DNA of 42,428 nucleotides, taken from assembly GCF_007004665.1 (NCBI RefSeq), contig NZ_ML660071.1, forward strand, positions 1 through 42,428, in the 5' to 3' direction. This DNA comes from Denitrobaculum tricleocarpae (GTDB lineage Bacteria; Pseudomonadota; Alphaproteobacteria; Kiloniellales; Kiloniellaceae). The translations under genes were made by a program, and so were the position numbers. Under the pieces are notes generated by a model. That model worked only from the letters and a program-made list of their open reading frames with translations, was not told the DNA's origin and did no database searches. Every line of letters starts with the position of its first letter. The first letter of the stretch is position 1. This document shows, one piece after another, positions 11,690-42,380 of the stretch.

Positions 11690-12018
11690 AGAACCGTCAC
11701 GGCCCAGACGGCCCGCCCTCCCATCGCCAGAAGAACTAAACCCACCCCCCAGGTGAAGAGACGCAGCGCCGCTCCCTTGACGCCCAAGGTCTCATGCAGG
11801 ATGACCCGCAGGCCGATGGCGGCATGAATGGAAACGGCAACGACGAAGAGGCCGTAAAAGAGAAACCATGCGAGACTGCCCTGCGTGCGCCCCAGGATTT
11901 CTGCCGCGGTCAGGCCGTCCTGAATAGCATAGATCATCACCGCGATATGGCCCAGTGTCAGGGGAGCCATAATCAAGGCCGTGATCCGCTGCAACATGTA
12001 GAGTCGCATGTCGAGCAT
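11686..12018 (-). CDS. sdhD: Succinate dehydrogenase-like membrane anchor subunit D
   Basis: 110 aa from the ATG at 12018, giving MLDMRLYMLQRITALIMAPL. The open frame extends further upstream to 12303, but that part is antisense-like shadow of the Fe-S gene. The ATG at 12018 comes directly after the Fe-S stop (12021-12023), as expected in this operon. Three membrane spans are predicted. 'LYMLQRITALIMAPLTLGHIAVM' and 'SIHAAIGLRVILHETLG' hold the Arg and the H-x-x-x-G-x-R element of the heme/quinone anchor family. It forms the membrane domain with subunit C. The small size is normal for the family. Confidence 0.83.
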   Translation of the reverse strand: MLDMRLYMLQRITALIMAPLTLGHIAVMIYAIQDGLTAAEILGRTQGSLAWFLFYGLFVVAVSIHAAIGLRVILHETLGVKGAALRLFTWGVGLVLLAMGGRAVWAVTVL

Positions 12019-12020
12019 GG

Positions 12021-12779
12021 CTACTTCCGCTTCTTGAAGAAAGACGCGGCGGTGGCGCGCTTCAAGCCCGCAATGGCTTTCATGGGATTGAGCTCGTTGG
12101 GACAGTGGAGCGTGCAGCTTCCCTGGCTGTGGCAGTTGTGGCAGCCGCCGTTCCCCGCGACCGCATCCAGGATCGTCTGTTGTCCGGCATCCTTCGCGTC
12201 GTTGTAGAGCGTCCAGGCCCGCTGCAGCGCCGCGGGTCCCAGATACTCCGCGTTGCCGGTCACGGTATCGCAGGCCGCATAGCAGACCGAACAGTTGATG
12301 CATTCGATCCCGGTGTCGGCCTCGAGCCGCGTCGCGCTTGAGGGATCGACCGGCTCAATCGGATCGTCGCGTGTTTTGGAGGGATGGTGCACGCCGGCAG
12401 CCTTGATCCACTTGTCGAAGAAAGGATCCATGTCGGTGGCGAGATCCTTGATTACGGGCAGATTACGCAGCGGCGCCACCGTAACCTTCTTATCCTTCAG
12501 GACCTTTTTTACATGCGTCCGGCAGGTCCAGCGCGGCACGCCGTTGACCATCATCGCGCAGGAGCCGCACATCCCGACACGGCAGGCAAAGCGGTAGGAA
12601 AGGGTTGGGTCTTCGTTCTGCTGAACCCACGCGACAACATCCAGGACAGTCTGGCTGTCCTGCGCGGGCACCCTGAAGGCCTCAAATCCGCCGCCGGTCG
12701 CGTCGCCGCGCCAGATCGCAACCTCTAGCTCTTCCCTCTCCAGAGACAAACCGGTGCTCCAGTCTCCATGACAAAACAT
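12021..12779 (-). CDS. sdhB: Succinate dehydrogenase/fumarate reductase-like iron-sulfur subunit
   Basis: 252 aa. The N-terminal [2Fe-2S] ferredoxin domain has C66, C71, C74 and C86 in 'CRVGMCGSCAMMVNGVPRWTC'-type spacing (the motif runs 66-86). The C-terminal bacterial ferredoxin domain has C160/C163/C166/C170 and C216/C222/C226, matching the standard [4Fe-4S] and [3Fe-4S] sets. Two details are unusual: C170 is followed by Asp instead of Pro, and an additional C213 precedes C216. The protein relays electrons between flavin and quinone. First gene of the operon. The ATG at 12779 lacks a clear ribosome site. A TTG at 12749 (Leu11), preceded by GGAG, would also give a normal N-terminus, so the start is uncertain. 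Confidence 0.92.
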   Translation of the reverse strand: MFCHGDWSTGLSLEREELEVAIWRGDATGGGFEAFRVPAQDSQTVLDVVAWVQQNEDPTLSYRFACRVGMCGSCAMMVNGVPRWTCRTHVKKVLKDKKVTVAPLRNLPVIKDLATDMDPFFDKWIKAAGVHHPSKTRDDPIEPVDPSSATRLEADTGIECINCSVCYAACDTVTGNAEYLGPAALQRAWTLYNDAKDAGQQTILDAVAGNGGCHNCHSQGSCTLHCPNELNPMKAIAGLKRATAASFFKKRK

Positions 12780-13028
12780 GAAGCGCGAGTATAATTATGA
12801 ACTTTTCTAACAAAAATGAATAAATTCTAACCAATAATGTAAGAAAAATTTTCAATTAGAATTCTGCAGTGTCAACCAAAGTTTTGACCTCCAGGACAAT
12901 CTGAAAGCCTTTGAATTTAAACAACTCAGAGTCCGACAAAATCAACATCTCAATTATAAATAATAATAAGTCTTATACCCAAAATCATAAAATTATAAAT
13001 CATTATTTTACACGTTTTTTGTTTACAA

Positions 13029-13277
13029 ATGAAATTATTAAAAATCTCCATTACTAATACCATTTTTTGTATTTATACAAATCACCTAAATGTGAAATGC
13101 AGAACCTTTATTACTAAAACTCATCTTCAAGTCGATATTCAATCTGACCATCTGACTAGGATCGTACAGGAATACCGAAAACGCCGCGGACAACGCTTTG
13201 GAAACCGCAGAACTCTCAGAAAAGCTGAGCGCATGATCGCCAAAACTGCAATAAAGACGCTCTCATCAAATCAATAA
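13029..13277 (+). CDS. Possible small hypothetical protein or decayed gene remnant
   Basis: 82-codon open frame inside the AT-rich gap. The first half is low-complexity AT-rich translation without a Shine-Dalgarno. The second half (from about 13130) has more normal base use and reads as a basic helical segment, 'RIVQEYRKRRGQRFGNRRTLRKAE' in part, with alternating Arg/Lys. That could be the tail of a lost gene or a tiny nucleic-acid-binding protein. No family was recognised, and it may be non-coding. Confidence 0.2.
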   Translation: MKLLKISITNTIFCIYTNHLNVKCRTFITKTHLQVDIQSDHLTRIVQEYRKRRGQRFGNRRTLRKAERMIAKTAIKTLSSNQ

Positions 13278-13490
13278 ACTAAATCAAAAATTAAGAAATT
13301 ATATAATTTTTATTTCAATATATAAAATAAAAATCAGAAATAATTCTTACCGCTTGCCGCTTAGCTCACATCAACACGCCAGACCATTCAGCGCAAAAGA
13401 ATTTGCATCAAATCACTGTTTATTATATATTATTTTTGATTTTCGACAACCAAACCTTGAAGCTCACAAGACGGAAAACAGGGAGGTGTG

Positions 13491-13529
13491 ATGAATTTTT
13501 TCAAAGATAATTTTATTTTAAGTTACTGA
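13491..13529 (+). CDS. Possible 12-residue leader-type micro-ORF
   Basis: MNFFKDNFILSY followed by TGA. It is preceded at 13481-13487 by gggaggt, one of the best ribosome-binding sites in the region, at suitable spacing. It lies about 260 bases before the coiled-coil protein gene, so it could be a leader peptide or a chance hit. No attenuator structure was found behind it. Confidence 0.2.
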   Translation: MNFFKDNFILSY

Positions 13530-13791
13530 TATTATTAAATAATTTATCTACTTCAATTAAAATCTTGCATCTTTCCAAAAAATTAATAAATCAAAGCTTT
13601 TTTAATACATAGAATGGCAAGTTTAATACATCAAATTAGAGGCATGAGCGCGATTGAGTGCACACCAAAGGTTTAAGGCAAGCACGGTACGGAGGCAGGA
13701 CTTTTCGAACAAGCAGGACCGCCGCGCCGCGTAGCCCTGAGCCATGCAACTGCAGCCCTTTCCATACCTTCCAACTGCAATGGAACATCCA

Positions 13792-15759
13792 ATGAGAAAC
13801 TTTGGTCAGATCTCTTGTTTTCTTGCCGTCTCGCTGATGATCGGCAGCGCCTCCGGTGCGGCGACAGCGGCTTACGCGACGTCGGCGGACACGGGGCTTG
13901 CCCCCGGCAGCGTGCAGCTTGCCGCGACAGCCGAAGAGAAAGCAAAGGAACGCGCGGAAAAAAAGCGGATTAAAGAAGAAGAAAAACGTATCAAGGCCGA
14001 GAAGAGAGCGGAAAAAAAGCGCCTCAAGGCTGAGGAAAGAGCCGCCAAGAAAAAGGCCGCTGCGGAGAAGAAAGTCGAAAAAGCCCTGAAGGACATCGAA
14101 AAGAATCTCTCAAAGCTCGAGGGTGCGGTCGATGAATCGATCCCGCTGGTGTCCTTCACGAGCCCGGTCAGCAGGCAAGTGAGTTCAGCCATAAAGGGCG
14201 CGGACCGCGCTCTTAAGAACCTGGCGAAAGCCGACCCGGAATACGATCTGACCGAAATCAACGAACGCTACGAACCTCTGAAGGCCTTCTTCGAGAACAA
14301 GGCCGCGGAAACGGAGAGCCCGGCGGCCCAGTCGATCCGCAGCATGGTTTTCGATTTGAAGTTCTTGGAGAGAGACGCCGAGGGCGGGGCCGTCCGAACC
14401 TTCAATCCCTCCCCAGTCAACGAGTTCGTCTCGGAAGGGGAATTTAAGGAACAGACAGTCGCCCGGCACTTGACAGAGGCGATGAACCTGGATCCGGAGT
14501 ACGACTTCACCCAGTTGCTGGAGAGATTCGACCCTTACGCGCGCAATTTCGTTGAGGGGACCGGCCAGCTTCTTGAGCATATGGATGGCTATAAAACCCA
14601 GCAAGAGATCGCGCAAGCCATTACCAACGCAAACGTGCTTGGAATGCATTATGACAATTTCCGACTATTAATCGATGGCCGGATGGCTGAGTTCACACTC
14701 AACGAAGTTAGAATCGAGCGGGCGAAAGCCGATAACGCGACCTTAATGGAATTGATTGCGGCGGTGGAGAAAAACATCCCGCTTCTCCAGCAGGAAGCAC
14801 AAACCATTACCTACTACAACACCCAGGTCTTCGAAGCAGAGCTCGGGAACATTCATCAAGCCCTTGAAGCAGCGAGCCGCCACGAACTCGTCGCCTACGA
14901 CAAAATCGATACCTCCTGCCAGGCGGCCATCGCCGGCAAGGTTGTTTTTGGTAGCGACCATCTCACCTTCGAGTGTGATCCTTCCAGCTTCATCACTGAG
15001 TACATCATCGGCGACAAGCTTTATATGCGGGCCGGTTTCGAAGACATTCCCGCCAATGCCTACATCGTGGCGCGCGATCATGAGCTCACCCTCGGCGTGC
15101 CCAACGGCATTACGGTGAAAGCTGTTTACAAGCTCGACGGCGAGGAACTCTTCGCATTTTATCCGAAGCATTCCGAGACCACCCAGAACATCGAGGCGGA
15201 GCTGATCACGACCTACCCGCCTTCGACGAATAGCGCCTATCACTGGAACCTGCGCGATGTATTTTTCGCGATGATGGACGCAGGCAAGGAACAAGCGGTT
15301 CTCGACATTGAACTCTACGCTTTCAACCGAGACGATAGGGTGGACGAGTCTTTGAAAGACGGTCCGCTGATCGCCAAGGGCAGCCTGAAACTCGATGCCT
15401 CAACCGATGCAGCACAAACCTATCTGCTCCAGGGTCTGGTCGGCGTTACCCCTCCGGGGCCGTTGCATGACGCCTTTGCCAGCAATGCCGCGCGGGCCAT
15501 GGCGCGCAGCGAAATCGCATACGACGTACTACACGTCACCAGCAAGGAAATGACCGTGGTGAAGAACATCCTGGGCATTCCCCTGAAAAAGGTCATCGCC
15601 ACGACGGTCGCGCAAAAGCACGCGGACAACAGCTGCACTGTCTATGTCCAGTGGATGAAGCAGGTCTTCGATGGCACGGGATACGCCGGCGGTCTCTCGC
15701 TGGACCGCAAGGAGCCTGATCACACAGTCCACTGCAAAGCGGTGGAACAGTACCTGTAA
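13792..15759 (+). CDS. Exported coiled-coil protein of unknown function (paralogue of the next gene)
   Basis: 655 aa from the ATG at 13792. The frame opens at 13744, but only the later ATG places a signal peptide (MRNFGQISCFLAVSLMIGSASG) at the N-terminus. Residues about 45-110 are an extremely Lys/Glu/Arg/Ala-rich coiled coil ('KAKERAEKKRIKEEEKRIK'-like). A helical domain comes next with two repeated-looking segments, 'INERYEPLKAFFENKAAETESP' and 'LLERFDPYARNFVEGTGQLLE'. A beta-rich C-terminal half (about 380-655) has no recognised motif. The helical part matches the following gene product. Probably periplasmic or surface-exposed. The two genes are separated by a terminator-like hairpin. Function unknown. 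Confidence 0.8.
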   Translation: MRNFGQISCFLAVSLMIGSASGAATAAYATSADTGLAPGSVQLAATAEEKAKERAEKKRIKEEEKRIKAEKRAEKKRLKAEERAAKKKAAAEKKVEKALKDIEKNLSKLEGAVDESIPLVSFTSPVSRQVSSAIKGADRALKNLAKADPEYDLTEINERYEPLKAFFENKAAETESPAAQSIRSMVFDLKFLERDAEGGAVRTFNPSPVNEFVSEGEFKEQTVARHLTEAMNLDPEYDFTQLLERFDPYARNFVEGTGQLLEHMDGYKTQQEIAQAITNANVLGMHYDNFRLLIDGRMAEFTLNEVRIERAKADNATLMELIAAVEKNIPLLQQEAQTITYYNTQVFEAELGNIHQALEAASRHELVAYDKIDTSCQAAIAGKVVFGSDHLTFECDPSSFITEYIIGDKLYMRAGFEDIPANAYIVARDHELTLGVPNGITVKAVYKLDGEELFAFYPKHSETTQNIEAELITTYPPSTNSAYHWNLRDVFFAMMDAGKEQAVLDIELYAFNRDDRVDESLKDGPLIAKGSLKLDASTDAAQTYLLQGLVGVTPPGPLHDAFASNAARAMARSEIAYDVLHVTSKEMTVVKNILGIPLKKVIATTVAQKHADNSCTVYVQWMKQVFDGTGYAGGLSLDRKEPDHTVHCKAVEQYL

Positions 15760-31429: not shown

Positions 31430-34400
31430 TTGCGGTCGCTAATCTCCAGTCTTTTTAAGAATCTCAAGATTTCCGACGCTATTACCAGAGATTTACACCG
31501 ATTGAACGGTTTGCAGAACGGATTGGGAGACAAAGCCGCGGCCTATGTCAGCAATGGGACTAACGAGACCGTTTTATCCACTCTGACAACTCTGGATTGC
31601 CGCGAGACGCTTGGATTGACAGCGCGCTACTCCAAAGACAAGGCAGACCATGCAAGACGCGTTTACCTAGCCCGTCAGGCGAACGACGCCGAGATACTCG
31701 CACGATATGCAGAAGTTCTGGGCGCGGCCACTGGCTCGGAGCAGGGCGATCTCTCTGGGTCGAAACACACGCCCCTGCCCCTGAGGGCACTCTTCACAAT
31801 TGCAGGTACTGGCCTGGTTGAGTCTTCGAATAGATGGCCGCGTCCTGTGATCGACGGGTCAGCCTGTAACCTGACCCCTGAATTCTGCCTTGCCGTTTGC
31901 CGGGCAGCAGGCGGTTCGGCGACGGATCTTTTCGACATTCTTTTCCAGGATGACGGCCGTTGGGAGACCCAAACCGAAATCAGAAGACTGCCGGAGCTCT
32001 TCGACTTTGCACCTTTGGCTCGCGACCATCCCGAGGAGTTGCTCTCAGCCGGACGGCGGATTAGCGCCAGCGGTAAGGTGGTCCTGATAAAGCAAATGCG
32101 CAAATGGTCGTTCTTTTCGGAACCGGCATTTTGCGGCTATCTGACCGAAATGACCGCCGATGGCGCCAAATCGGTCCGCCAGGAAGCGGTCCAGGTCATG
32201 ATGACCCTGCCGCACGAGCAGGTCCTGCCCGTCGCCGAAAAAAATCTGTCGGAGGGTAGCGCGCCGGTCCGCAGCGCCATGGTCTCGCTCTTGGCCGGGC
32301 TCCAGGCGCCCGAAGCGCTAAATATACTGCGCGAACATCAAAAGACGGAGAAGACCGCCCGAATTAAAGCGGCCATCGAATCAGCGCTTACAGTTGAGAC
32401 AGTGAACACCCGCGAGACCGAGGAGGCAGACGACGCAACCAGCTACCTCGCCCTTGACGGAAGCCGTGTCGAAATTCCGCCGAAACGGATGCCGAGCACC
32501 GCGCCTGAGATAACCTTCAGCAAGGAAGACCTGCAGCATCTTTCTGAGCTCATCAAAAAAGAGAACGCCGAGATCGATCGCCGCAACAAGACGAGAACGG
32601 GATTGAGCAAGTACGTCGAACCTTCGCTTTCAAGCGGCTTCGCAAACCAGATCATCGAGCTGCTCAACGGACCGCCTGAAGAGTTCCTGCTCGAGAAGAA
32701 CCAGCTGATGCGCATGTTCCTCTATCATACGGCGCGGGACAGTTGGACACTGCCGACTTTGAAACGCATGCCCCAAGACAGGGCGCTGCGCTTCGCCTTG
32801 CGCATGAGTCGAGACTTCGACGCCGCATTCCATCAAGGTGACTACACAGCGGGCGATGCCTACATTTCGTACTACGTGAACAGCGAAGGCGCCGACTACC
32901 GTGTCCTGGAGGACCTGAACGCAACAGGTGTCGCCCAAATTCAATATGGATCCTGGGGGGACCGGAAAAGCCGTCACGCCGGTCCCGGGGATTTGATCCG
33001 CGAAGAGATGTCGCGCGATTGGTTCAACTACGAGGTCGCGGACTTGCCGCGTGAAGCCATCTGGCCGCTTTTGGCCGAGAGCTTCGATGTGTTCGATCAG
33101 GCCTTTGGTTTGCGAAGCGCCGACGACCTGAAGCCCTCTAGATTTCACGCGATACGCTTTCTTCATCTCCTGCCCAAAACCCCGCAACGCTACTACGGCC
33201 CTCTTTTGGAAGTCGCCACAGGAACGACCAAGACCGGCCGGGCTGAAGCGCGGGAGATGCTGACGGGCGCCCCCGGTCTGGCAGAGCGCGTCGTCGCCCT
33301 GCTTGACGATACCCGGCAAGACGTGCGGGCGGGTGCCGCCGAATGGATTGCGGATCTTGGTTTGCAGGAGGCGACCAAGGCGCTGCAGGCGCGCCTCAAG
33401 AAAGAGAAATCGGATCTGGCCCAAGCTGCAATTCTCACCACGCTATCACGATTGGGGGTCGAGCTTTCGGACTATGTGGGTCCGAAGGCGCTTCTGGCTG
33501 AAGCCGAGAAGACCCTGAAAAAGGCGAAGTTCGATAAGCTGGAGTGGCTGATCGACGACCATCTGCCGACGATGAAGTATAGAAGTGGACAGAAAGTACC
33601 GTCGGAAGTGATCAAGGCTTGGTTGTTCCTTGCCAACAAGCTCAAACAACCGGGTGGGAATAAGCTCTTCGACATCTATCTCGACCAACTGGATCCCGAA
33701 AGCGCGAAGGAACTCTCGACCTGGATCTTCGATGCCTGGATCAACTATGACACGCAGCGTCCCAGCAATGCCGAGGCAAATGCCTATGCGGAACAGCATG
33801 CCGATCAGAACTGGAAAAGCATGCTGCGCTGGGTCAAGGATTACACGCGGGAACAGGCTTTTCGCGAGCTTTACAACGGGATCAAGAGCCAATACCTGAA
33901 CTCGGGGGCGGCCACGAAAGGCGTTCTGGCGCTGACAAAACACACCGACCCGGCGCATGCAGCGGCTTCGGTGCGCAATTACCTCAAGGCGCACGGATCC
34001 CGTACCTCCCAAGCCTCTTCGCTCTTAGATCTGCTGGCTGCGAAGGGCGATCCCCTGTCGCTGCAAATCGTCATCTCCGCGGCAACACGCCTCAAGCAAA
34101 AGGGTGTTCAGGCCTACGCAGGCAAACTGGTCGAGGCCGTTGCCGATGCCCGCGACTGGACGATGGACGAACTCGCAGACCGCACTGTTCCCTCCGCGGG
34201 CCTGAACGATGAGGGCATACTCGAGCTCCCCTGCGGACGGGAGGAAAAGCCCTATTCCGCCCGCATGGACGATGAATTTAAACTCGTCGTGTTGAATCCG
34301 GACGGAAAGAAAATCAAAGGGCTGCCAGCGGGCGATGACGATGCGACCAAAGCCAGCAAAAAGCAGCTCTCGGCTTCGAAACGGGAACTGAAGCAAGTCA

Positions 34401-35146
34401 TCACCCTGCAGGGCGAACGTCTTTATGAAGCGCTTTGTGCCGAAAGGCGTTGGCCCGTCCAGGACTGGATACGCGACTTCCGCGACCACCCTGTTATGGG
34501 CCGCCTGACAGAGCGGGTCATCTGGTTGGGTGAGAATGGCGAGGGCGCGCTCCTCGGCGCATTTCGTCCCACTGCCGAAGGCGACTACGTAGATGCCGAA
34601 GACAACGAAGTAGAGCCCCAGTCTTTCGCCTCTATCCGCCTTGCCCACGGGGCTTTGCTCGCCGCCGAGCAGGCGGAAGCCTGGGTGCAGCATCTGACCG
34701 ACTATGAAGTCAAGCCGCTCTTTACCCAGTTCGGCCGGCCCCTTCTGGCTCTGACCGAGGAACAGGGCAAGGAGACCCGGATCGAGGATCGCAAAGGCTG
34801 GACAACCGACACCTTTACGATGCGCGGTGCCGCGTCGCGTCTGGGTTATGAGCGTGGCGAGGCCATGGATGCCGGTTACTTCAACGAATACATTAAAAAC
34901 TTTCGCAGTGCCGGCCTCAGCGCCGTGATCGAATTCTCGGGCAATTGCCTGCCGGAAGAGAACCTTCCCGCTGCGGCGATACATCTGGAGTTCGTCAAGC
35001 TGCTCAACAATAACAGACGTTCACGGGCAGTTTCCTTGGCGGAAGTGCCGCCGGTCCTCTTATCGGAGTGTTGGAACGATTACCGGGACATGGTGGCGAA
35101 AGGCAGCCATGATCCCGATTGGGAAAAGAAGATGCCATGGATGTAA
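31430..35146 (+). CDS. DUF4132 (MolR/YehI-type) giant HEAT-repeat protein
   Basis: 1238 aa from TTG 31430; AGGA at 31419-31422 lies seven bases upstream, and no better ATG is near. The middle contains helical repeats of HEAT type (for example 'DDTRQDVRAGAAEWIADLGLQEATKALQARL' in pattern, about 625-660). The C-terminal third (about 960-1238) is the DUF4132 domain: 'RRWPVQDWIRDFRDHPVMGRL', 'SIRLAHGALLAAEQAEAW' and 'DYEVKPLFTQFGRPL' elements. No enzyme motif, signal or membrane segment is seen, so it is probably a cytoplasmic scaffold. E. coli YehI/MolR is the named relative. First gene of the five-gene operon; its end overlaps the MoxR gene. Confidence 0.88.
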   Translation: MRSLISSLFKNLKISDAITRDLHRLNGLQNGLGDKAAAYVSNGTNETVLSTLTTLDCRETLGLTARYSKDKADHARRVYLARQANDAEILARYAEVLGAATGSEQGDLSGSKHTPLPLRALFTIAGTGLVESSNRWPRPVIDGSACNLTPEFCLAVCRAAGGSATDLFDILFQDDGRWETQTEIRRLPELFDFAPLARDHPEELLSAGRRISASGKVVLIKQMRKWSFFSEPAFCGYLTEMTADGAKSVRQEAVQVMMTLPHEQVLPVAEKNLSEGSAPVRSAMVSLLAGLQAPEALNILREHQKTEKTARIKAAIESALTVETVNTRETEEADDATSYLALDGSRVEIPPKRMPSTAPEITFSKEDLQHLSELIKKENAEIDRRNKTRTGLSKYVEPSLSSGFANQIIELLNGPPEEFLLEKNQLMRMFLYHTARDSWTLPTLKRMPQDRALRFALRMSRDFDAAFHQGDYTAGDAYISYYVNSEGADYRVLEDLNATGVAQIQYGSWGDRKSRHAGPGDLIREEMSRDWFNYEVADLPREAIWPLLAESFDVFDQAFGLRSADDLKPSRFHAIRFLHLLPKTPQRYYGPLLEVATGTTKTGRAEAREMLTGAPGLAERVVALLDDTRQDVRAGAAEWIADLGLQEATKALQARLKKEKSDLAQAAILTTLSRLGVELSDYVGPKALLAEAEKTLKKAKFDKLEWLIDDHLPTMKYRSGQKVPSEVIKAWLFLANKLKQPGGNKLFDIYLDQLDPESAKELSTWIFDAWINYDTQRPSNAEANAYAEQHADQNWKSMLRWVKDYTREQAFRELYNGIKSQYLNSGAATKGVLALTKHTDPAHAAASVRNYLKAHGSRTSQASSLLDLLAAKGDPLSLQIVISAATRLKQKGVQAYAGKLVEAVADARDWTMDELADRTVPSAGLNDEGILELPCGREEKPYSARMDDEFKLVVLNPDGKKIKGLPAGDDDATKASKKQLSASKRELKQVITLQGERLYEALCAERRWPVQDWIRDFRDHPVMGRLTERVIWLGENGEGALLGAFRPTAEGDYVDAEDNEVEPQSFASIRLAHGALLAAEQAEAWVQHLTDYEVKPLFTQFGRPLLALTEEQGKETRIEDRKGWTTDTFTMRGAASRLGYERGEAMDAGYFNEYIKNFRSAGLSAVIEFSGNCLPEENLPAAAIHLEFVKLLNNNRRSRAVSLAEVPPVLLSECWNDYRDMVAKGSHDPDWEKKMPWM

Positions 35147-36225
35147 CAAACACCCAGAAAGAGCCGGCCGAACGCCGCTACGCCGAGGAGCTGGCTCGAC
35201 TGAAGGCCGAAGACCGGGCGCCAAAGCCGGCAGGTTGGCAGCTGTCCCCGCGCGCGGTGCGGCGTTTCATCCTTGGCGATCCCGCATTGGATGTCAGCCG
35301 GAAGTTCTACGGCGACGACCCGCTCGTCGACCGTTGTATCGTCTCGCTGATGGGGCATCAGGGCCTGATGCTGGTGGGTGAACCTGGGACGGCAAAGTCG
35401 CTGCTGTCGGAGCTTCTGGCTGCGGCGATCAGTGGCAATTCCCTCCTCGTCGTGCAGGGGAGTGCCGGCGTCATCGAGGACCATCTGCGCTATGGTTGGA
35501 ACTACGCCCTGCTGCTGGCCGAAGGCCCGAGCGAACGGGCGCTGGTTCCATCGCCGATTATGAATGCGATGCAAGACGGGAAGATTGCACGGATCGAAGA
35601 GCTGACCCGCTGTGCACCAGAGGTCCAGGACGCAATGATTTCCCTGCTTTCGGAAAAGACCATCGCCATGCCGGAGCTGGGGGCTGAGCGCGAACTGCGC
35701 GCTGCGCGCGGATTCAATGTCATCGCCACCGCCAACCTGCGCGATCTGGGCGTAAACGAGATGTCGAGCGCGCTCAAGCGCCGCTTCAATTTCGAGACCG
35801 TCTCGCCGATCGCGGATGCAGCCTTCGAAAAGGAATTGATTGCGAAACAGCTCAAGGAGCGCATGGAGGATTACGATATAGAAGCCGAGATGCCCGAGGA
35901 GGTGTTGGACGTGGTTGTTTCGGTTTTTCGCGACCTGCGAACGGGCCGCGCCGAGGACGGCGCGGTAGTGGCGCAGCCTAAAAGCGTCATGTCCACCGCC
36001 GAAGCTGTGAACGTGGCCCATGCGGCACTCTTGGATGCAGGGTATCTATCGGCGGAATCTCCGACCGGTGCTCATGTAGCACGGCAACTGGGTGGCGTTG
36101 TCTTCAAAGACGACGCCGAAGACGCCCGCAAACTGCGCGCCTATGTGGACACGATCGCGCGCGCAAGGGGCCGCAGAAGCCGGGCCTGGGCATCCTTTCA
36201 TAAAGCCGCAAAGTCGGATGACTGA
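35137..36225 (+). CDS. YehL-type MoxR AAA+ ATPase
   Basis: 362 aa from ATG 35137 (MDVTNTQK). A TTG at 35119 would add six residues and is less likely. Walker A G81-E-P-G-T-A-K-S88; Walker B region 'GKIARIEELTRC'; sensor 1 'VIATANLRDLG'; arginine finger 'SSALKRRFNF'. The C-terminal lid runs to the end. MoxR ATPases work as hexameric remodellers with VWA partners, and one follows two genes later. The length equals that given for E. coli YehL, founder of one MoxR subfamily. It overlaps the preceding gene by ten bases (ATGgatgtaa), so it is translationally coupled. Confidence 0.93.
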   Translation: MDVTNTQKEPAERRYAEELARLKAEDRAPKPAGWQLSPRAVRRFILGDPALDVSRKFYGDDPLVDRCIVSLMGHQGLMLVGEPGTAKSLLSELLAAAISGNSLLVVQGSAGVIEDHLRYGWNYALLLAEGPSERALVPSPIMNAMQDGKIARIEELTRCAPEVQDAMISLLSEKTIAMPELGAERELRAARGFNVIATANLRDLGVNEMSSALKRRFNFETVSPIADAAFEKELIAKQLKERMEDYDIEAEMPEEVLDVVVSVFRDLRTGRAEDGAVVAQPKSVMSTAEAVNVAHAALLDAGYLSAESPTGAHVARQLGGVVFKDDAEDARKLRAYVDTIARARGRRSRAWASFHKAAKSDD

Positions 36226-36267
36226 CCCACAATTCGGCTTTATGGCGACAGCAAGCACGAGAAAGCT

Positions 36268-38670
36268 ATGACCGGAGAAGCTCTCATTCGCGCCGTGCGT
36301 GAGAGAGTGTTTCAACCCGAAGCACAGCTTTACATCGCACCGGTACGTCACCATTCCCCGGCCTGCGCCAGCGCTGTGCAGAAGATGATCCGCGAGATCC
36401 GCCCCGCCAAAGTACTGATCGAAGCGCCCCACGACCTCGAACATCTGATCCCTCACCTCCTTGCCGCCGACACTGAGCCACCGGTGGCTGCAGCCAGCCT
36501 GCTTGATCGCAAGGACGGGCCCAGGCTGGCCGCTTACTATCCCTTCTGCGCCCATTCACCGGAATGGGTCGCCCTGCGCGAAGGGGCCAAAGTGGGCGCT
36601 GAACTGCGCTTCATCGATCTCGGATCAGACGCCAAGATCGCCTCCGCCGATCAGCAGGAAACCGGCCCCAGGCCTCTGGTTCGCGAGCAGGCCTTCGATC
36701 AGGGCGACTACGTCAGAGCTCTGTGCAGCCGTCTCGGGTGTCAGGATGGTTACGAGTTATGGGACCATCTCTTCGAAACCCGGATCGGTGACCAGGACTG
36801 GCGCAGCTTCCTCGCCGACGTCGGCGCCTACTGCACCGCCCTGCGCGCCTCGACACCCGCGGATGAGATCGAAAGCACGGGCGACATGGAGCGCGAAACC
36901 CACATGGCAGCCGGCCTGCGCGATGCCCTGGGTTCCGGTCCGGTGGTGGTGGTGATCGGTGGCTTTCATACCGCACCACTCCTCGACCCGATCAAAACCG
37001 CGGGTAAGACCTCGGCCGGCGGGAAGTCGGATGCCCAGTCCTATCTGATCCGCTACGGCTACAAAGAGCTTGATGCTTTGATGGGTTATGGGGCCGGTTT
37101 GCCGCAGCCAGCCTATTACGAAGCGCTGTGGAACCATGTGCAGTCCAAGGAAGGCACACCCGACTGGCAGGTGATTGCCCGCGAACTGATACAGAGCTTC
37201 TCCAGTAAAATGCGCACAGCCGGCTATGGAATTTCTCTGCCGGCGCAGGTGGAGCTACTGCGCAGCGCCGAGACGCTCGCGCGTCTGAGGAACCGTCCGG
37301 GCGCTCTGCGTCACGATCTTATCGATGCCCTGACCTCCGCCCTCGTGAAGGGCGAGACCAGTAGCGCGGATGCCTGGAGAGAACGCTTTGTCGTCTTTCT
37401 GCGCGGCCACGCGCTCGGCGAGGTCAGCGATATGGCGGGGCAGCCACCGATCGTCGCGGATGCGCGCGCCCGGGCCAAAGCCCTGCGCTTTAATGTTTCC
37501 GACGGTCTAAGGCGAGAGCGCAGCCTCGATATCCGCCGCAAACCCGCTCATCTCGCCGCCTCGCGCTTTGCCCACGCCATGACGTTGCTCGAGACCGATT
37601 TTGCCAGCCGTTCTGGAGGACCCGATTTTCTGAATGCCGTACAGACCGGCTTGCTGTTCGAACACTGGGACTACGCCTGGTCTCCGAAGGTGGAAGGACA
37701 GCTCATCGAGGCAGCGGTCTTTGGCGATACAATCCCCGCTGCCTGTCTGGGACAGCTTGCGCGAGCCCGCGCCGCGCTAACAGAGAATGGACGCTCCGAT
37801 GACCTTGACGCCCTGCTTGCTCTCTTCAAACAGGGGCTTTTAGCCGGTTTGGGGCAAGACCTGGACAGGTTGCTGACCGAGGTCAAAGACGCTCTGCGTC
37901 GAAGCGGTGATTTCCCCCAAACCGCCAGGGCTATCACTACGCTCCATGCAATCGAAGCTTCGCGCGGACCTTTGTCTTTACCCGAAGGATTGGAAATCCG
38001 CAGCGTCATGCAAGGCGCCTTCGAGAGGCTGATCTATCTCTGCGATGACCTTCCTAAGATTCGCGAAGAGGCCCTGCCCCCCTGCCTGGATGCCCTGCGC
38101 ATGCTGACCGAACTCCTACACGGGCCCGCTGCAGGCTCTTTCGAAACCGCCTTGTTCGATGAAGCTCTCGATCGGATCGCCGAGGCAGATCCAAGACCGG
38201 AACTCCTCGGCGCAGTGACAGCAATCGCGGTCGAAGGCGGGCGTAAACCGGCATCCACGCTTCCAGACATGCTGACCGGCCAGTTCAGTGGCACCGCCCT
38301 CAATCTTCCCGCTCGCTTGGGCGGCCTGCGCGGCATGCTGGCTGTAGCGCCAAACCTTCTCTGGACAGCGGACCACGTGCTCGCAGTCGTCGACGAATTT
38401 CTTGCCCAACTGGACGATGATGCCTTTTTAGCCATGCTACCCCATCTGCGCCTGGCTCTGTCGACGCTTTCGCCACGTGAGGCGGACCGCATTGCCGCCG
38501 CCTTGGTTCACCGCCATGGTGGCAGCGCCGGGGATTTCACCGCGCATCATTACGATGTCACTGACGAAGATGCCCGGCGGGGGGCGGAAATCGACGCGGC
38601 CCTGCGCGCGAGCATTCGGGCGGATGGGCTGGAAGACTGGATCTTCGCGCAGAACGAAGGTGCGGTATGA
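36268..38670 (+). CDS. DUF5682 (YehM-like) protein of unknown function
   Basis: 800 aa. The N-terminal region has 'IAPVRHHSPACA' (H28-H29) and 'KVLIEAPHDLEHLIPHLL'. The later 'VVVIGGFHTAPLLDP' (about 228-242) completes a His-rich pattern recalling TraB/erythromycin-esterase-like hydrolase folds; that likeness is only a guess. From about 320 to the end it is helical with Arg/Leu-rich repeats, ending 'ADGLEDWIFAQNEGAV'. No membrane or signal segment. It is the usual partner of the MoxR/VWA/SWIM set and corresponds in place and size to E. coli YehM. The next gene begins inside its stop (ATGA). Confidence 0.85.
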   Translation: MTGEALIRAVRERVFQPEAQLYIAPVRHHSPACASAVQKMIREIRPAKVLIEAPHDLEHLIPHLLAADTEPPVAAASLLDRKDGPRLAAYYPFCAHSPEWVALREGAKVGAELRFIDLGSDAKIASADQQETGPRPLVREQAFDQGDYVRALCSRLGCQDGYELWDHLFETRIGDQDWRSFLADVGAYCTALRASTPADEIESTGDMERETHMAAGLRDALGSGPVVVVIGGFHTAPLLDPIKTAGKTSAGGKSDAQSYLIRYGYKELDALMGYGAGLPQPAYYEALWNHVQSKEGTPDWQVIARELIQSFSSKMRTAGYGISLPAQVELLRSAETLARLRNRPGALRHDLIDALTSALVKGETSSADAWRERFVVFLRGHALGEVSDMAGQPPIVADARARAKALRFNVSDGLRRERSLDIRRKPAHLAASRFAHAMTLLETDFASRSGGPDFLNAVQTGLLFEHWDYAWSPKVEGQLIEAAVFGDTIPAACLGQLARARAALTENGRSDDLDALLALFKQGLLAGLGQDLDRLLTEVKDALRRSGDFPQTARAITTLHAIEASRGPLSLPEGLEIRSVMQGAFERLIYLCDDLPKIREEALPPCLDALRMLTELLHGPAAGSFETALFDEALDRIAEADPRPELLGAVTAIAVEGGRKPASTLPDMLTGQFSGTALNLPARLGGLRGMLAVAPNLLWTADHVLAVVDEFLAQLDDDAFLAMLPHLRLALSTLSPREADRIAAALVHRHGGSAGDFTAHHYDVTDEDARRGAEIDAALRASIRADGLEDWIFAQNEGAV

Positions 38671-39782
38671 GCGAACAGGTCAAACGTCGCTGGCGTCTCG
38701 CGCTCGGCCGCTACGCAGAACAGCAGCTCGGCGGGTTAACGGGAGGCGACGGGCGGGCGGATCGTGCGCTCGACTACCTTTATGGCCGTGAGTACGACAA
38801 ACGCGGACTGCATCGCCCGGACGGGCCCGGATCGCTCGATCCTACTCAAATGAAGGCCCTCGATTGGCTCGGCGAAGCGCGCAAACTCTTCCCGCAATCG
38901 GTCTTCCAGGTACTGCAGGACCACGCACTCGATAGATACGGGCTTTCCGAACTCCTGGATGATCCCAAGACTCTCGACAGCCTTGAGCCCAATCAGGATC
39001 TCCTGAAGACGCTGTTAAGCTTCCATGGGCGGGCCAGGCCGGAGATAAAAGATAAACTGCGGCAGGTCGCCGATGCCGTCATTCAAGACGTCCTCCGACG
39101 ATTGAAGTCGGATGTGCAGCGTGCATTTTCCGGACGACGCAATCCCTTCAAGCGCTCGCACATCGCCTCGGCGGCCAACTTCGACTGGCGGAACACACTT
39201 CGCCGAAACCTGAAACACTATGACCCAAAAGCCGGGCGCATCATCGCCGAAGAGCTGCGCTTCTTGTCCCGCGAACGACGCAGGCTACCATGGTCGGTGG
39301 TGCTCTGCGTGGACCAGTCAGGCTCTATGACAGACAGCATTATCCACTCGGCGGTGATGGCGGCTATTCTCTCGGGCCTGCCGGGCGTACGCGTCTCCAT
39401 GGTGTTGTTCGATACATCGATCATCGATGTCACCGACCGTTTGACCGACCCACTGGAAACGCTCTTGTCCGTGCAGCTTGGCGGCGGAACCGATATCGGA
39501 CGCGCTGTCGAATACTGCGAGCGCTTCGTCGAAACACCGGAACGCACGGTTTTTGTCCTGATCTCGGATTTCGCCGAAGGCGCCAGCCCCCGCCGGCTCT
39601 TCCGCGCCGTCGCACGGATGAACGAAGCCCGTGTGCGCCTGATCGGGCTCAGCGCGTTGGACGAGCTGGGCGCCCCCTATCACGATGAACAGATTGCCGG
39701 GCGCCTGACATCGCTGGGTATGCAGATCGGCGCGATGACCCCGGACCGGCTCGCGCAGTGGCTGGCGGAGGTGATGCGATGA
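38667..39782 (+). CDS. VWA-domain protein (YehP-like), partner of the MoxR ATPase
   Basis: 371 aa. A helical N-terminal half (1-205) is followed by a von Willebrand A domain with a complete metal-ion site: D216-Q-S-G-S220, T275 in 'GGGTDIG' and D301 in 'LISDFAEG'. Such VWA proteins bind Mg and clients and are moved by MoxR ATPases. There is no signal peptide or membrane span, so it is cytoplasmic. The start ATG at 38667 overlaps the DUF5682 stop, and its own stop overlaps the SWIM start (ATGA at 39779-39782), so all the later genes are tightly coupled. Matches E. coli YehP in length and position. Confidence 0.92.
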   Translation: MSEQVKRRWRLALGRYAEQQLGGLTGGDGRADRALDYLYGREYDKRGLHRPDGPGSLDPTQMKALDWLGEARKLFPQSVFQVLQDHALDRYGLSELLDDPKTLDSLEPNQDLLKTLLSFHGRARPEIKDKLRQVADAVIQDVLRRLKSDVQRAFSGRRNPFKRSHIASAANFDWRNTLRRNLKHYDPKAGRIIAEELRFLSRERRRLPWSVVLCVDQSGSMTDSIIHSAVMAAILSGLPGVRVSMVLFDTSIIDVTDRLTDPLETLLSVQLGGGTDIGRAVEYCERFVETPERTVFVLISDFAEGASPRRLFRAVARMNEARVRLIGLSALDELGAPYHDEQIAGRLTSLGMQIGAMTPDRLAQWLAEVMR

Positions 39783-41704
39783 CGCTGGCCGGCATACTGT
39801 CATCCTTTGACGATAACGCCTTGGCCGCTTTGGCAAACAAGGGCCTGCTGCGTCGCGCCCACAAAGCCTGCAAAGAAGGTGAAGCAGAGATCATCCGCCT
39901 GGATGAAACAGGTGCGGAAGTCGAGGCCAGCGGTCAAACGGTGACACTCCCAATAACTGGGCCGCAGGCTGCCGACTGTAGCTGTCCGGCATCGGGGATC
40001 TGCAGCCACATTCTGATGGCAGTGATTACCCTGCGCGATCTCCCAGCGGAAGCACGGAGCGCCGGCGCAACGCCACCTGTGCTCTCCTCGCGGCAGATGC
40101 TTCTTGAGATATCCGAGGCTGAACTGCGCAAGTTTGCCGGGTCCGACTATGATCAGGCTCTCGTCTTGGCTGGATCGGCCGAGAGGAACGATGAAGAAGA
40201 GAACCTAGCTGTCAGCTTCGCAACGCCAGAGGCGCAAGTGACTTTTGTCGCGGGTCAGCCTCTTAAAGCGGCTCTTTACAAAGGACCAGGTACGCGCAAA
40301 CGGCTGGTCATAACAGCAGCAGTGATCGCCGTTCGCTTCCAGGCCGGCATAGGCTCAAAGCTTGATAGCGACAAGGCGCCAAGCGAAACCGGTCCCGAAG
40401 CAGAGATGCTGATCGCGATTTGCGAAGCTATCGAAACTGCAATCGGTCAGGTATTCCACGGCTCTGCTTCGCTTGCCTCGGAGCGGTTTCTTGATCTCGC
40501 CATCTCTGCGCGTGTGCAATCCGCGCCCCGTCTGACATCGCAATTGATGACGTTATCGGCCTTCGCCGACTGGGCGGACAAGGGCGACATCCGGTTCGAT
40601 GGCTCCCGGTTTCTATCTAATCTCTCGCAGGCTTACGCCCTAAGCAAAGCGCTCACTGTCCGGCCGAACGACCCAGTCTTATGCGGCACTGCACGGCGCA
40701 GCTATGACCCGGCTCCCGCCATCAGCCTATGGGCGCTTGGCGCAGGAAGATGGGCGACCGCGGCAGGCGCCCGAGGACTGACCCTGCATTTGCTGAACCC
40801 TGAGAACGGCGAATTCTTATGCGCCGTGATCGCGCGTGGCGCCGGCCAGGATCCTCTCTTTACCGCCCGTGAGGCTTTTGCAGGCCCCATATGGGGCGTG
40901 CCTTCGGTAGAAACCTTGACTGGTACCCAGGTGCATTTTGCGCAGCCGTTCCTGTCCGTGGATCACCAACTCTCGACTTCCGGCAAAGCACGTGCTGAAG
41001 TTCGCGGAAATCTCCAGGCGTCCGACGTAGTGGATTCCCCGTATCTGATCCAACGCTGGGATGAACTACACAGCTCGCTGCGCGCCAGAGCCGGCACTGG
41101 CATGGCGCGTACGGCTTCCCCACTTCCATCACTTGTCTTACCAGAAAGGGTCGACGAAGCCAGGTTCGATGACTTAAACCAGCTCTATCATTGGCCTGTG
41201 CGGGATGCAGCAGGAGCGACTCTTCACCTTTCCGCCCCGCCCTCGCGGCTGTCTCGCCTGAAAACTCTGCCTCAGCAGTTTCCTGGCGCACTGGCACTCT
41301 TGATCACGACAACACTGACAGCAGATGGTCCGACCCATGAGCCGGTCTCCATCCTGATCCGTAAGGGCAACGGCGTCGAGGCAATCGACCTGCACTTCAC
41401 CACCGCACCTGCCGGCAACATTTTCTCGAAGGCTCGTGCTGGCTTTGCAAAGCAAATGCGCCGGATTTCAGAGACAGTGAATACCACACAGGGTGCGGGT
41501 TTCGGTCAATTGGCTCTCGCTGGACTGGCAGAGCATTGCCGCCAACCACAAACCGATGCCCTTGAAATCCTGGCACAGAGGGCAGAAGCGCAAAACCTGA
41601 TTTTGATTTCTGACGCGCTGCATCAGGTATGCCGCGAACGTCGAGCAGACAGAATTCTAAAGGCTTCGTATCTCTGTAGCGAAGCTTCCACGATGAGCCT
41701 TTGA
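39779..41704 (+). CDS. SWIM zinc-finger protein (YehQ-like)
   Basis: 641 aa from ATG 39779; GGAGG at 39767-39771 supports this start over an in-frame GTG at 39758. The SWIM finger is C67-x-C69-x5-C75-x-H77 ('CSCPASGICSH'), the pattern for binding DNA, RNA or protein. Residues about 100-640 are helical and beta mixed without a recognised catalytic motif. It closes the five-gene operon, as YehQ does in E. coli. A natural role is target recognition for the MoxR/VWA machine, but this is inference. Confidence 0.88.
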   Translation: MTLAGILSSFDDNALAALANKGLLRRAHKACKEGEAEIIRLDETGAEVEASGQTVTLPITGPQAADCSCPASGICSHILMAVITLRDLPAEARSAGATPPVLSSRQMLLEISEAELRKFAGSDYDQALVLAGSAERNDEEENLAVSFATPEAQVTFVAGQPLKAALYKGPGTRKRLVITAAVIAVRFQAGIGSKLDSDKAPSETGPEAEMLIAICEAIETAIGQVFHGSASLASERFLDLAISARVQSAPRLTSQLMTLSAFADWADKGDIRFDGSRFLSNLSQAYALSKALTVRPNDPVLCGTARRSYDPAPAISLWALGAGRWATAAGARGLTLHLLNPENGEFLCAVIARGAGQDPLFTAREAFAGPIWGVPSVETLTGTQVHFAQPFLSVDHQLSTSGKARAEVRGNLQASDVVDSPYLIQRWDELHSSLRARAGTGMARTASPLPSLVLPERVDEARFDDLNQLYHWPVRDAAGATLHLSAPPSRLSRLKTLPQQFPGALALLITTTLTADGPTHEPVSILIRKGNGVEAIDLHFTTAPAGNIFSKARAGFAKQMRRISETVNTTQGAGFGQLALAGLAEHCRQPQTDALEILAQRAEAQNLILISDALHQVCRERRADRILKASYLCSEASTMSL

Positions 41705-42265: not shown

Positions 42266-42380
<115 letters not shown>

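Follow-up and report, generated by a model that had tools for sequence, protein, structure and literature searches.

A five-gene MoxR/VWA unit kept together across bacterial phyla, with a probable enzyme and two exchangeable long proteins

The DNA analyzed here, called the window throughout, is a stretch of 42,428 nucleotides of Denitrobaculum tricleocarpae (contig NZ_ML660071.1), which carries five plus-strand genes coding for a long DUF4132 protein with HEAT repeats, a MoxR ATPase, a DUF5682 protein, a VWA protein and a SWIM zinc-finger protein. The main result of the analysis is that these five genes form one unit that is kept together across phyla. The long, scaffold-like protein belongs to either of two interchangeable families (DUF4132 or DUF5691). 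The DUF5682 protein, to which an earlier note made from the letters of this DNA had assigned no role, is probably an enzyme, judging from its motifs and profile similarity. We propose, with a probability of about 40%, that the five genes encode one machine in which a MoxR/VWA motor activates DUF5682, and the long HEAT-type and SWIM proteins serve as adaptors.

Conservation of the five-gene unit

Two peptide patterns taken from seven DUF5682 proteins were searched against a species-genome collection, yielding at least 566 confirmed loci; the 80 named loci described here are the best 80 of these and hence lean towards the window. They span the Alpha-, Beta- and Gammaproteobacteria, Planctomycetota, Acidobacteriota, Verrucomicrobiota, Bacillota, Actinomycetota and one Bacteroidota genome, and 64 of them hold all five families on one strand. 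Since the set recurs across phyla, a chance arrangement of the five genes is excluded. The earlier note had argued for a single machine conserved outside enterobacteria and had proposed a check of co-occurrence and gene order over genomes; that check supports the conservation on which it relied, with a few exceptions discussed below.

The order of the window (DUF4132-MoxR-DUF5682-VWA-SWIM) is found in 42 of the 80 loci, tandem DUF4132 genes counted in, and in three more with an extra DUF4132 gene on the opposite strand. Nine loci have the order MoxR-DUF5682-VWA-SWIM-DUF4132 and six MoxR-DUF5682-VWA-DUF4132-SWIM. When an opposite-strand DUF4132 gene is treated as a state of its own, the DUF5682 tree of the 66 complete loci requires at least six changes in gene order. 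Distances between the five proteins are strongly correlated (0.89-0.96 for the ten pairs over 66 loci, versus at most 0.14 when shuffled), and these values, obtained with no outside gene as control, partly reflect shared ancestry. Direct succession of MoxR and DUF5682 was observed in 76 pairs, with a gap of at most 100 bases in 72 of them.

Two types of the system can be distinguished by the long protein, which is DUF4132 in type I (the window and E. coli) and DUF5691 in type II (Deinococcus and Rhizobium), where the order is SWIM-DUF5691-MoxR-DUF5682-VWA. A sample of 378 evenly drawn Pseudomonadota genomes contained DUF5682 above the cut-off in 14 genomes (15 genes), with one further match below it (G246), DUF4132 in 11 genomes and DUF5691 in six. 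DUF4132 or DUF5691 was present in all 14 DUF5682 genomes versus two of the 364 others (G007 and G200), and G009 and G209 gave DUF5691 matches below the cut-off. The association of a HEAT-type family with DUF5682 has a Fisher p of 1e-23, uncorrected for relatedness and with several positives from the same genus; counted by genus, DUF5682 positives amount to 10 of 200. A full five-part cluster surrounds 14 of the 15 DUF5682 genes, eight of type I, including one whose SWIM gene extends past the retrieved stretch (L185), and six of type II. For the fifteenth gene (G167), the contig ends 347 bases away; MoxR adjoins it and the DUF4132 genes are on another contig. Genome G196 holds one cluster of each type. 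A three-gene core of MoxR, DUF5682 and VWA was also considered and ruled out, because in each of the three loci concerned Pfam identifies SWIM and DUF5691 genes immediately upstream.

The DUF5682 protein as a probable enzyme

ChaN and TraB, which belong to one superfamily with EreA, provide the closest parallel to DUF5682, whose N-terminal domain is probably a ChaN/TraB-like, metal-dependent hydrolase domain. In an alignment of 65 DUF5682 proteins covering both types, among them the E. coli protein and three from type II, the residues listed in Table 1 are among those invariant in all 65. H28/H29, E52, R209-E210 and G231xxH234 parallel G16xxH19, E45, R215-N216 and G238xxH241 of TraB, as well as H16, E44, D168 and G192xxH195 of ChaN. 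The ChaN/TraB pattern of a His motif, a Glu some 25 residues on and a second motif ending in GxxH is present in DUF5682, the window protein being without the Gly of the first GxxH motif.

Profile comparison points in the same direction. With profiles built from 29 of 30 TraB, 12 of 12 EreA and 28 of 30 ChaN loci, hhalign gave 71.7% (E 3.5e-5) for the DUF5682 N-terminal domain against ChaN and 22.8% (E 9e-4) against TraB, and a repeat run 69.5% and 16.6%, respectively. The yardstick comparison of TraB with ChaN yielded 56.6% (E 1e-4). The controls stayed at E values of 0.075-0.8, whether the profiles were reversed, unrelated families were compared or the C-terminal half of DUF5682 was used. The alignment with TraB covers the first motif and the next Glu in one run and the second motif in the repeat, and that with ChaN covers the second motif ending in GxxH. 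AlphaFold2 predicts, with high confidence, an alpha/beta N-terminal domain followed mostly by helices, with a predicted local distance difference test score (pLDDT) of 91.8 for the full-length protein and 92.2 for the N-terminal domain.

Two types and their long HEAT-type protein

DUF4132 matches chains of HEAT-type repeats in a sequence search of the PDB. The assignment of DUF5691 to the same kind is weak and draws on sub-cut-off HEAT matches in two of three proteins, on a single match to the DUF4132 profile (E 8e-8) and on one DUF4132 protein that in turn matches DUF5691. WGR was rejected as a regular part of type I, with none of 38 DUF4132 proteins matching it at E 0.001; a WGR domain was found in E. 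coli YehF. Among the SWIM proteins, 36 of 58 family members match Pfam SWIM at E 0.01, and a PDB sequence search with the family returned no match at E 1.

Both types occur on plasmids, type I in Allorhizobium, Sinorhizobium and Iodobacter, and type II in Deinococcus taeanensis, Rhizobium, Hymenobacter and Methylosinus, where some parts are broken in Hymenobacter and Methylosinus. In the plasmid of Hymenobacter radiodurans DUF5682 is annotated as three overlapping pieces (L106:9004-11296) and in that of Methylosinus the VWA gene runs across three frames (L108:11169-12397), so these two type II copies look decayed. A Fusobacterium record (L107) has SWIM, MoxR, DUF5682 and VWA, with no long protein recognised.

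Several variants of the DUF4132 gene were observed. Three tandem DUF4132 genes precede one MoxR gene in genome G196 (L190:9894-19049), and tandem copies are also seen in Gilliamella loci; such copies possibly represent a diversification of the long protein. An extra short copy (L065:1830-2756), an orphan DUF4132 domain with DUF7737 (L017:9713-12316) and a split copy beside a 1639-amino-acid protein without Pfam match (L105:2872-3738) were also recorded.

Regulation and DNA-damage sites

A LexA-like site, CTGGATAAAATTACAG, lies 25 bases before the upstream WGR-DUF4132 gene of E. coli (yehF in K-12) in all three strains analyzed (L008:6450-6465, also L183 and L184), with one base differing in one of the three. 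The annotation shows a single whole gene in L183 and L184 and, in K-12, a split into yehF and the pseudogene yehH. We take it to be molR, in view of the WGR domain of MolR. In the literature, molR is listed as LexA-regulated (PMC11039860, PMC4576408) and MolR is described as carrying a WGR domain (PMC8533742). A gap of 306 bases precedes yehL, and hence the whole E. coli set need not be one transcript.

In Deinococcus, the D. radiodurans DUF4132 protein DRA0166, a possible member of the five-part system, is reported to rise after mitomycin C in an IrrE-dependent manner (PMC8533742). A DdrO-like site (radiation/desiccation response motif, RDRM) with two mismatches of 15, new here, lies on the type II operon promoter of D. 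taeanensis, at L103:5748-5762. It directly follows a -10-like element, some 20 bases ahead of the SWIM gene, the first of the operon. Of 2000 Markov copies made from this intergenic stretch, 4 reached as good a match, and the finding concerns this one locus.

Across the loci, LexA-type sites at up to one mismatch were found in three of 25 alpha, four of 24 gamma/beta and eight of 22 Gram-positive loci, where some 0.07-0.11 per locus are expected; several of the Gram-positive eight come from one genus, and the scan, in which the start was estimated from the profile, missed the E. coli site. DNA-damage control is possible in some lineages, by the LexA-like site of E. coli and the DdrO-like site of Deinococcus, and does not appear in most of those tested, the window included.

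Proposed mechanism

The earlier note had reported complete Walker, MIDAS (metal ion-dependent adhesion site) and SWIM motifs, and comparison with relatives upholds all three. Walker A (GxPGTAK) and the sensor-1 TAN are invariant in 79 MoxR proteins, which share an unusual RxEE as Walker B; the MIDAS residues D216, S218, S220, T275 and D301 are 98-100% conserved in 75 relatives of the VWA protein, and each of the four CxC..CxH positions is 97% conserved in 74 SWIM relatives. The YehL subfamily, which the earlier note had mentioned, is indeed one of seven named MoxR subfamilies (PMC3893208). The MoxR protein of the window is assigned to it by similarity, on identity (51%), Walker motifs and sensor 1, and the VWA protein, with its complete MIDAS and its gene near that of MoxR, has the features of a MoxR-VWA pair.

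In the well-studied NorQ-NorD pair, a finger of the VWA protein occupies the pore of the ring, and a linker that is twisted at the expense of ATP lets iron enter nitric oxide reductase (PMC9976466, PMC13036017). If the present set works as NorQ-NorD and CoxD-CoxE do, the VWA protein would plug the MoxR ring, and the ring might use ATP to twist or open DUF5682, resulting in metal loading or in its switch-on. DUF5682 is taken as the client because of the MoxR-DUF5682 adjacency and of DUF5682-VWA gene fusions, which were found in L077 and L105, a Micrococcales contig and a Streptomyces plasmid. Adjacency aside, these fusions are the sole physical link seen in sequence. Further fusions suspected in G151 and G167 (1183 and 1180 amino acids) were discarded as stop-to-stop frames whose upstream part overlaps MoxR. 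The earlier suggestion that the ATPase/VWA pair remodels a client recognised by the SWIM protein finds no support as worded, the fused genes joining DUF5682 with VWA instead.

The weakest steps of the scheme concern the adaptors. The SWIM protein and the long HEAT-type protein of either family might bring the enzyme to its target, and this target might be a nucleic-acid-associated protein under stress. DNA damage would be the likeliest signal in lineages with LexA- or DdrO-like sites. A bolder version, which we regard as unlikely to hold in full, would be a widespread and so far undescribed ATP-driven damage-response machine in which MoxR/VWA charges a ChaN/TraB-like hydrolase and the exchangeable HEAT-type protein and the SWIM protein deliver it to damaged or blocked nucleoprotein, under LexA control in enterobacteria and DdrO control in Deinococcus.

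Several observations weigh against the main proposal. Not all loci hold the complete set on one strand, and 11 of the 16 that do not are shorter than 20 kb, most of them possibly cut. Of the five longer ones, one has its DUF4132 genes on the opposite strand (L071), two are devoid of DUF4132 (L085 and L092), and DUF5682 stands alone in L034 and with MoxR only beside it in L035. Among the short ones, L072 (DUF5682 alone) and L082 (without MoxR) have enough flank for the gap to be real. L034, L035, L072 and L082 are contigs of metagenome-assembled genomes titled Blastocatellia and Planctomycetes, where single components may function or be lost on their own. VWA does not adjoin DUF5682 in the four loci of the 80 with the order VWA-SWIM-DUF4132-MoxR-DUF5682, and DUF4132 lies between the two on rhizobial plasmids. 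The adaptor role is weakened because DUF4132 is no more variable across species than DUF5682 (mean column identity 26% and 27%, respectively). On the other side, SWIM is the least conserved (21%), and within E. coli YehI changes faster than YehL, YehM and YehP.

On the side of the enzyme, Pfam reports only PF18934 for the window DUF5682, with no match to ChaN (PF04187) or TraB (PF01963), and a PDB sequence search gives a best E of 0.47; in the same kind of search TraB retrieves mostly helical designs (best E 0.005) and the ChaN profile 2g5g. EreA does not match DUF5682 by hhalign (E 0.29) and itself hardly matches ChaN (1.25%). Foldseek returned no PDB match at E up to 0.001 for either DUF5682 model, and the ChaN structure 2g5g is absent among the 50 matches listed. 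The weak matches of the N-terminal domain are headed by 7w5z_E (0.18), and rank 4 is 5t09 (0.56), the ChaN/EreA-like protein HopBA1.

As to regulation, the window has neither of the LexA patterns GTTCN7GTTC and GAACN7GAAC within 250 bases before the start at up to one mismatch. When three mismatches are allowed, L103 as a whole shows no enrichment of the DdrO motif (four matches, a number reached by 18 of 100 shuffles). A stricter best-match test gave a combined p of 0.099 for 22 Gram-positive and 0.026 for 22 gamma/beta loci, with three of 44 loci at p up to 0.05, Priestia abyssalis being the best and E. coli reaching only 0.105. General SOS control of the system is unsupported by these tests.

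Distribution within E. coli and rival explanations

At a query coverage of at least 80%, yehM is present in 5166 and the yehL-Q block in 5162 of 5426 complete E. coli genomes (95%), and 5320 of 5322 places are chromosomal. The ratio of nonsynonymous to synonymous substitution rates (dN/dS) within the species, calculated without yehQ, is 0.18-0.35 for yehI, 0.03-0.05 for yehL, 0.10-0.12 for yehM and 0.06-0.09 for yehP; the flanking btsR and btsS are more constrained (0-0.02). Recurrent flank clusters were analyzed in 83 loci (open reading frames of at least 90 amino acids, blastp E 1e-8, clusters of at least three loci) and no shared extra neighbour stood out among them; inspected by eye, with no family scan, they comprise proteins resembling sensor kinases, dehydrogenases, regulators, transporters and the like. 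In Iodobacter, genes for type I restriction and for a PDDEXK nuclease come after the plasmid-borne type I operon (L104:13514-18734).

These data bear on the possibility that the genes form an anti-phage conflict system of the MoxR-vWA kind, with the HEAT and SWIM proteins sensing an invader, MoxR/VWA setting a threshold and DUF5682 as effector enzyme. Such systems have been described (eLife 2020, PMC7159879), and the patchy occurrence in Pseudomonadota (14 of 378 genomes), the presence on true plasmids, once next to a type I restriction set, and the two or three tandem DUF4132 copies of several loci would all suit it. We nonetheless consider it rather unlikely. PADLOC 2.0 matches only the SWIM protein (best E 0.008), short of a known anti-phage system, and the window MoxR scores 24.2 bits against a bpMoxR cut-off of 27. 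No effector or defence gene was recognised by eye in the flank clusters, the genes are chromosomal and under purifying selection in nearly all E. coli genomes, and of 36 plasmid records matched, 27 are typed as non-mobilizable and several are chromosome-sized. A cellular role fits better than a conflict role with a set that is near-core in E. coli, which sets it apart from the usual accessory defence island, under purifying selection and weakly matched by PADLOC.

The membership of the VWA protein in the CoxE family, together with MoxR/VWA pairs that insert metals in nitric oxide reductase and carbon monoxide dehydrogenase, suggests instead that the set matures another metalloenzyme, with DUF5682 as carrier or helper, and perhaps one linked to molybdenum, as the name molR hints; the WGR protein MolR is a relative of the DUF4132 proteins treated here (PMC8533742). 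We hold this to be improbable. No metalloenzyme gene was recognised by eye in the same clusters, DUF5682 retains catalytic-looking residues in the 65 aligned members, and moeA and moeB were reported unchanged in the Deinococcus study (PMC8533742). Least probable of all, in our view, is a general protein-quality chaperone in which DUF5682 is a mere scaffold with an inactive N-terminal domain. The full-length DUF5682 model does find mostly HEAT/ARM-type and similar helical repeats in Foldseek, as weak matches with none at E 0.001, but the invariant polar residues at ChaN/TraB positions in both types are unexpected for a dead domain. Recognising the E. coli genes as members of a five-part system, with a long protein from either of two interchangeable families and a probable enzyme among its parts, turns five genes of unknown function into one testable machine.

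Gene layout in the window

The gene coordinates (Table 1) bear out the overlaps of 10, 4 and 4 bases described earlier for the five plus-strand genes, provided that the internal ATGs at 35137 and 39779 are the starts; 42 bases separate the second and third genes. GAGGAAAG lies directly upstream of the TTG start of the DUF4132 gene, and of the 3.1 sigma-70-like sites expected in a promoter scan of the window, none was found. Identity to E. coli is 27% over 373 amino acids for YehI, 51% over 333 for YehL, 28% for YehM, 42% for YehP and 33% over only 85 amino acids for YehQ. The DUF5682 protein is 68-69% identical to those of Thalassococcus and Pelagimonas, the closest among the matches listed. 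The SWIM protein falls below the Pfam SWIM cut-off (17.6 versus 19.6 bits).

Table 1. Features of the five-gene unit in the window (positions of the window)
Feature	Open reading frame	Coordinates	Strand	Remarks
DUF4132 protein with HEAT repeats, 1238 amino acids	31430-35146	31430..35146	+	TTG start at 31430; DUF4132 and HEAT_2 in Pfam
MoxR AAA+ ATPase, YehL kind	35119-36225	35137..36225	+	ATG at 35137 (frame from TTG 35119); Pfam AAA_5
DUF5682 protein (YehM), 800 amino acids	36268-38670	36268..38670	+	Residues ~1-300 probable ChaN/TraB-like alpha/beta domain, remainder mainly helical
DUF5682 residues 27-234		36346..36969	+	Invariant R27 H28 H29 P31, E52, D117, R209 E210 M213, G231xxH234
CoxE-type VWA protein (YehP)	38667-39782	38667..39782	+	Complete MIDAS; Pfam VWA_CoxE, 176 bits
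SWIM zinc-finger protein (YehQ-like)	39758-41704	39779..41704	+	CxC..CxH, residues 74-84 counted from GTG at 39758

The G+C content of the operon resembles that of the remainder of the contig. Elsewhere in the window, G+C falls to 0.47 at 12001-14000, versus 0.53-0.63 in other parts, and no open reading frame of at least 120 amino acids is found at 12779-13744. A tRNA-Met gene on the minus strand (42304-42380) lies 600 bases downstream of the operon, near the contig end.

Comparison with known systems

The literature search, in which short gene names match unrelated words and subscription papers mostly fall outside the scope, found no description of the five-part system and no function for the E. 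coli set, whose yehL-Q block is carried by 95% of complete genomes of that species. As the earlier note had stated, the five families stand in E. coli in the order of the window, in the series yehI-yehK-yehL-yehM-yehP-yehQ. This series differs in that yehK intervenes between the DUF4132 and MoxR genes and that a further DUF4132 gene lies upstream (in K-12 split into yehF, with WGR, and the pseudogene yehH). The MoxR-vWA ternary conflict systems resemble the set in combining MoxR, vWA and a third component, and count HEAT among their scaffold domains (PMC7159879), whereas Pfam detects none of the VMAP, iSTAND and propeller domains in the four window proteins that accompany MoxR, and the terms YehL, SWIM, DUF4132, TraB and EreA are absent from the main text of that paper. 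DUF5682 shares with ChaN (PF04187) and TraB/PrgY/GumN (PF01963) a motif pattern and profile similarity over its N-terminal 300 residues, and differs from them in carrying about 500 further, mainly helical residues. Finally, as in NorQ-NorD, CoxD-CoxE and RavA-ViaA, a MoxR ATPase is encoded with a MIDAS-bearing VWA partner; unlike those pairs, the set of the window adds DUF5682, HEAT-type and SWIM proteins, and with it the MoxR/VWA family gains a new architecture.

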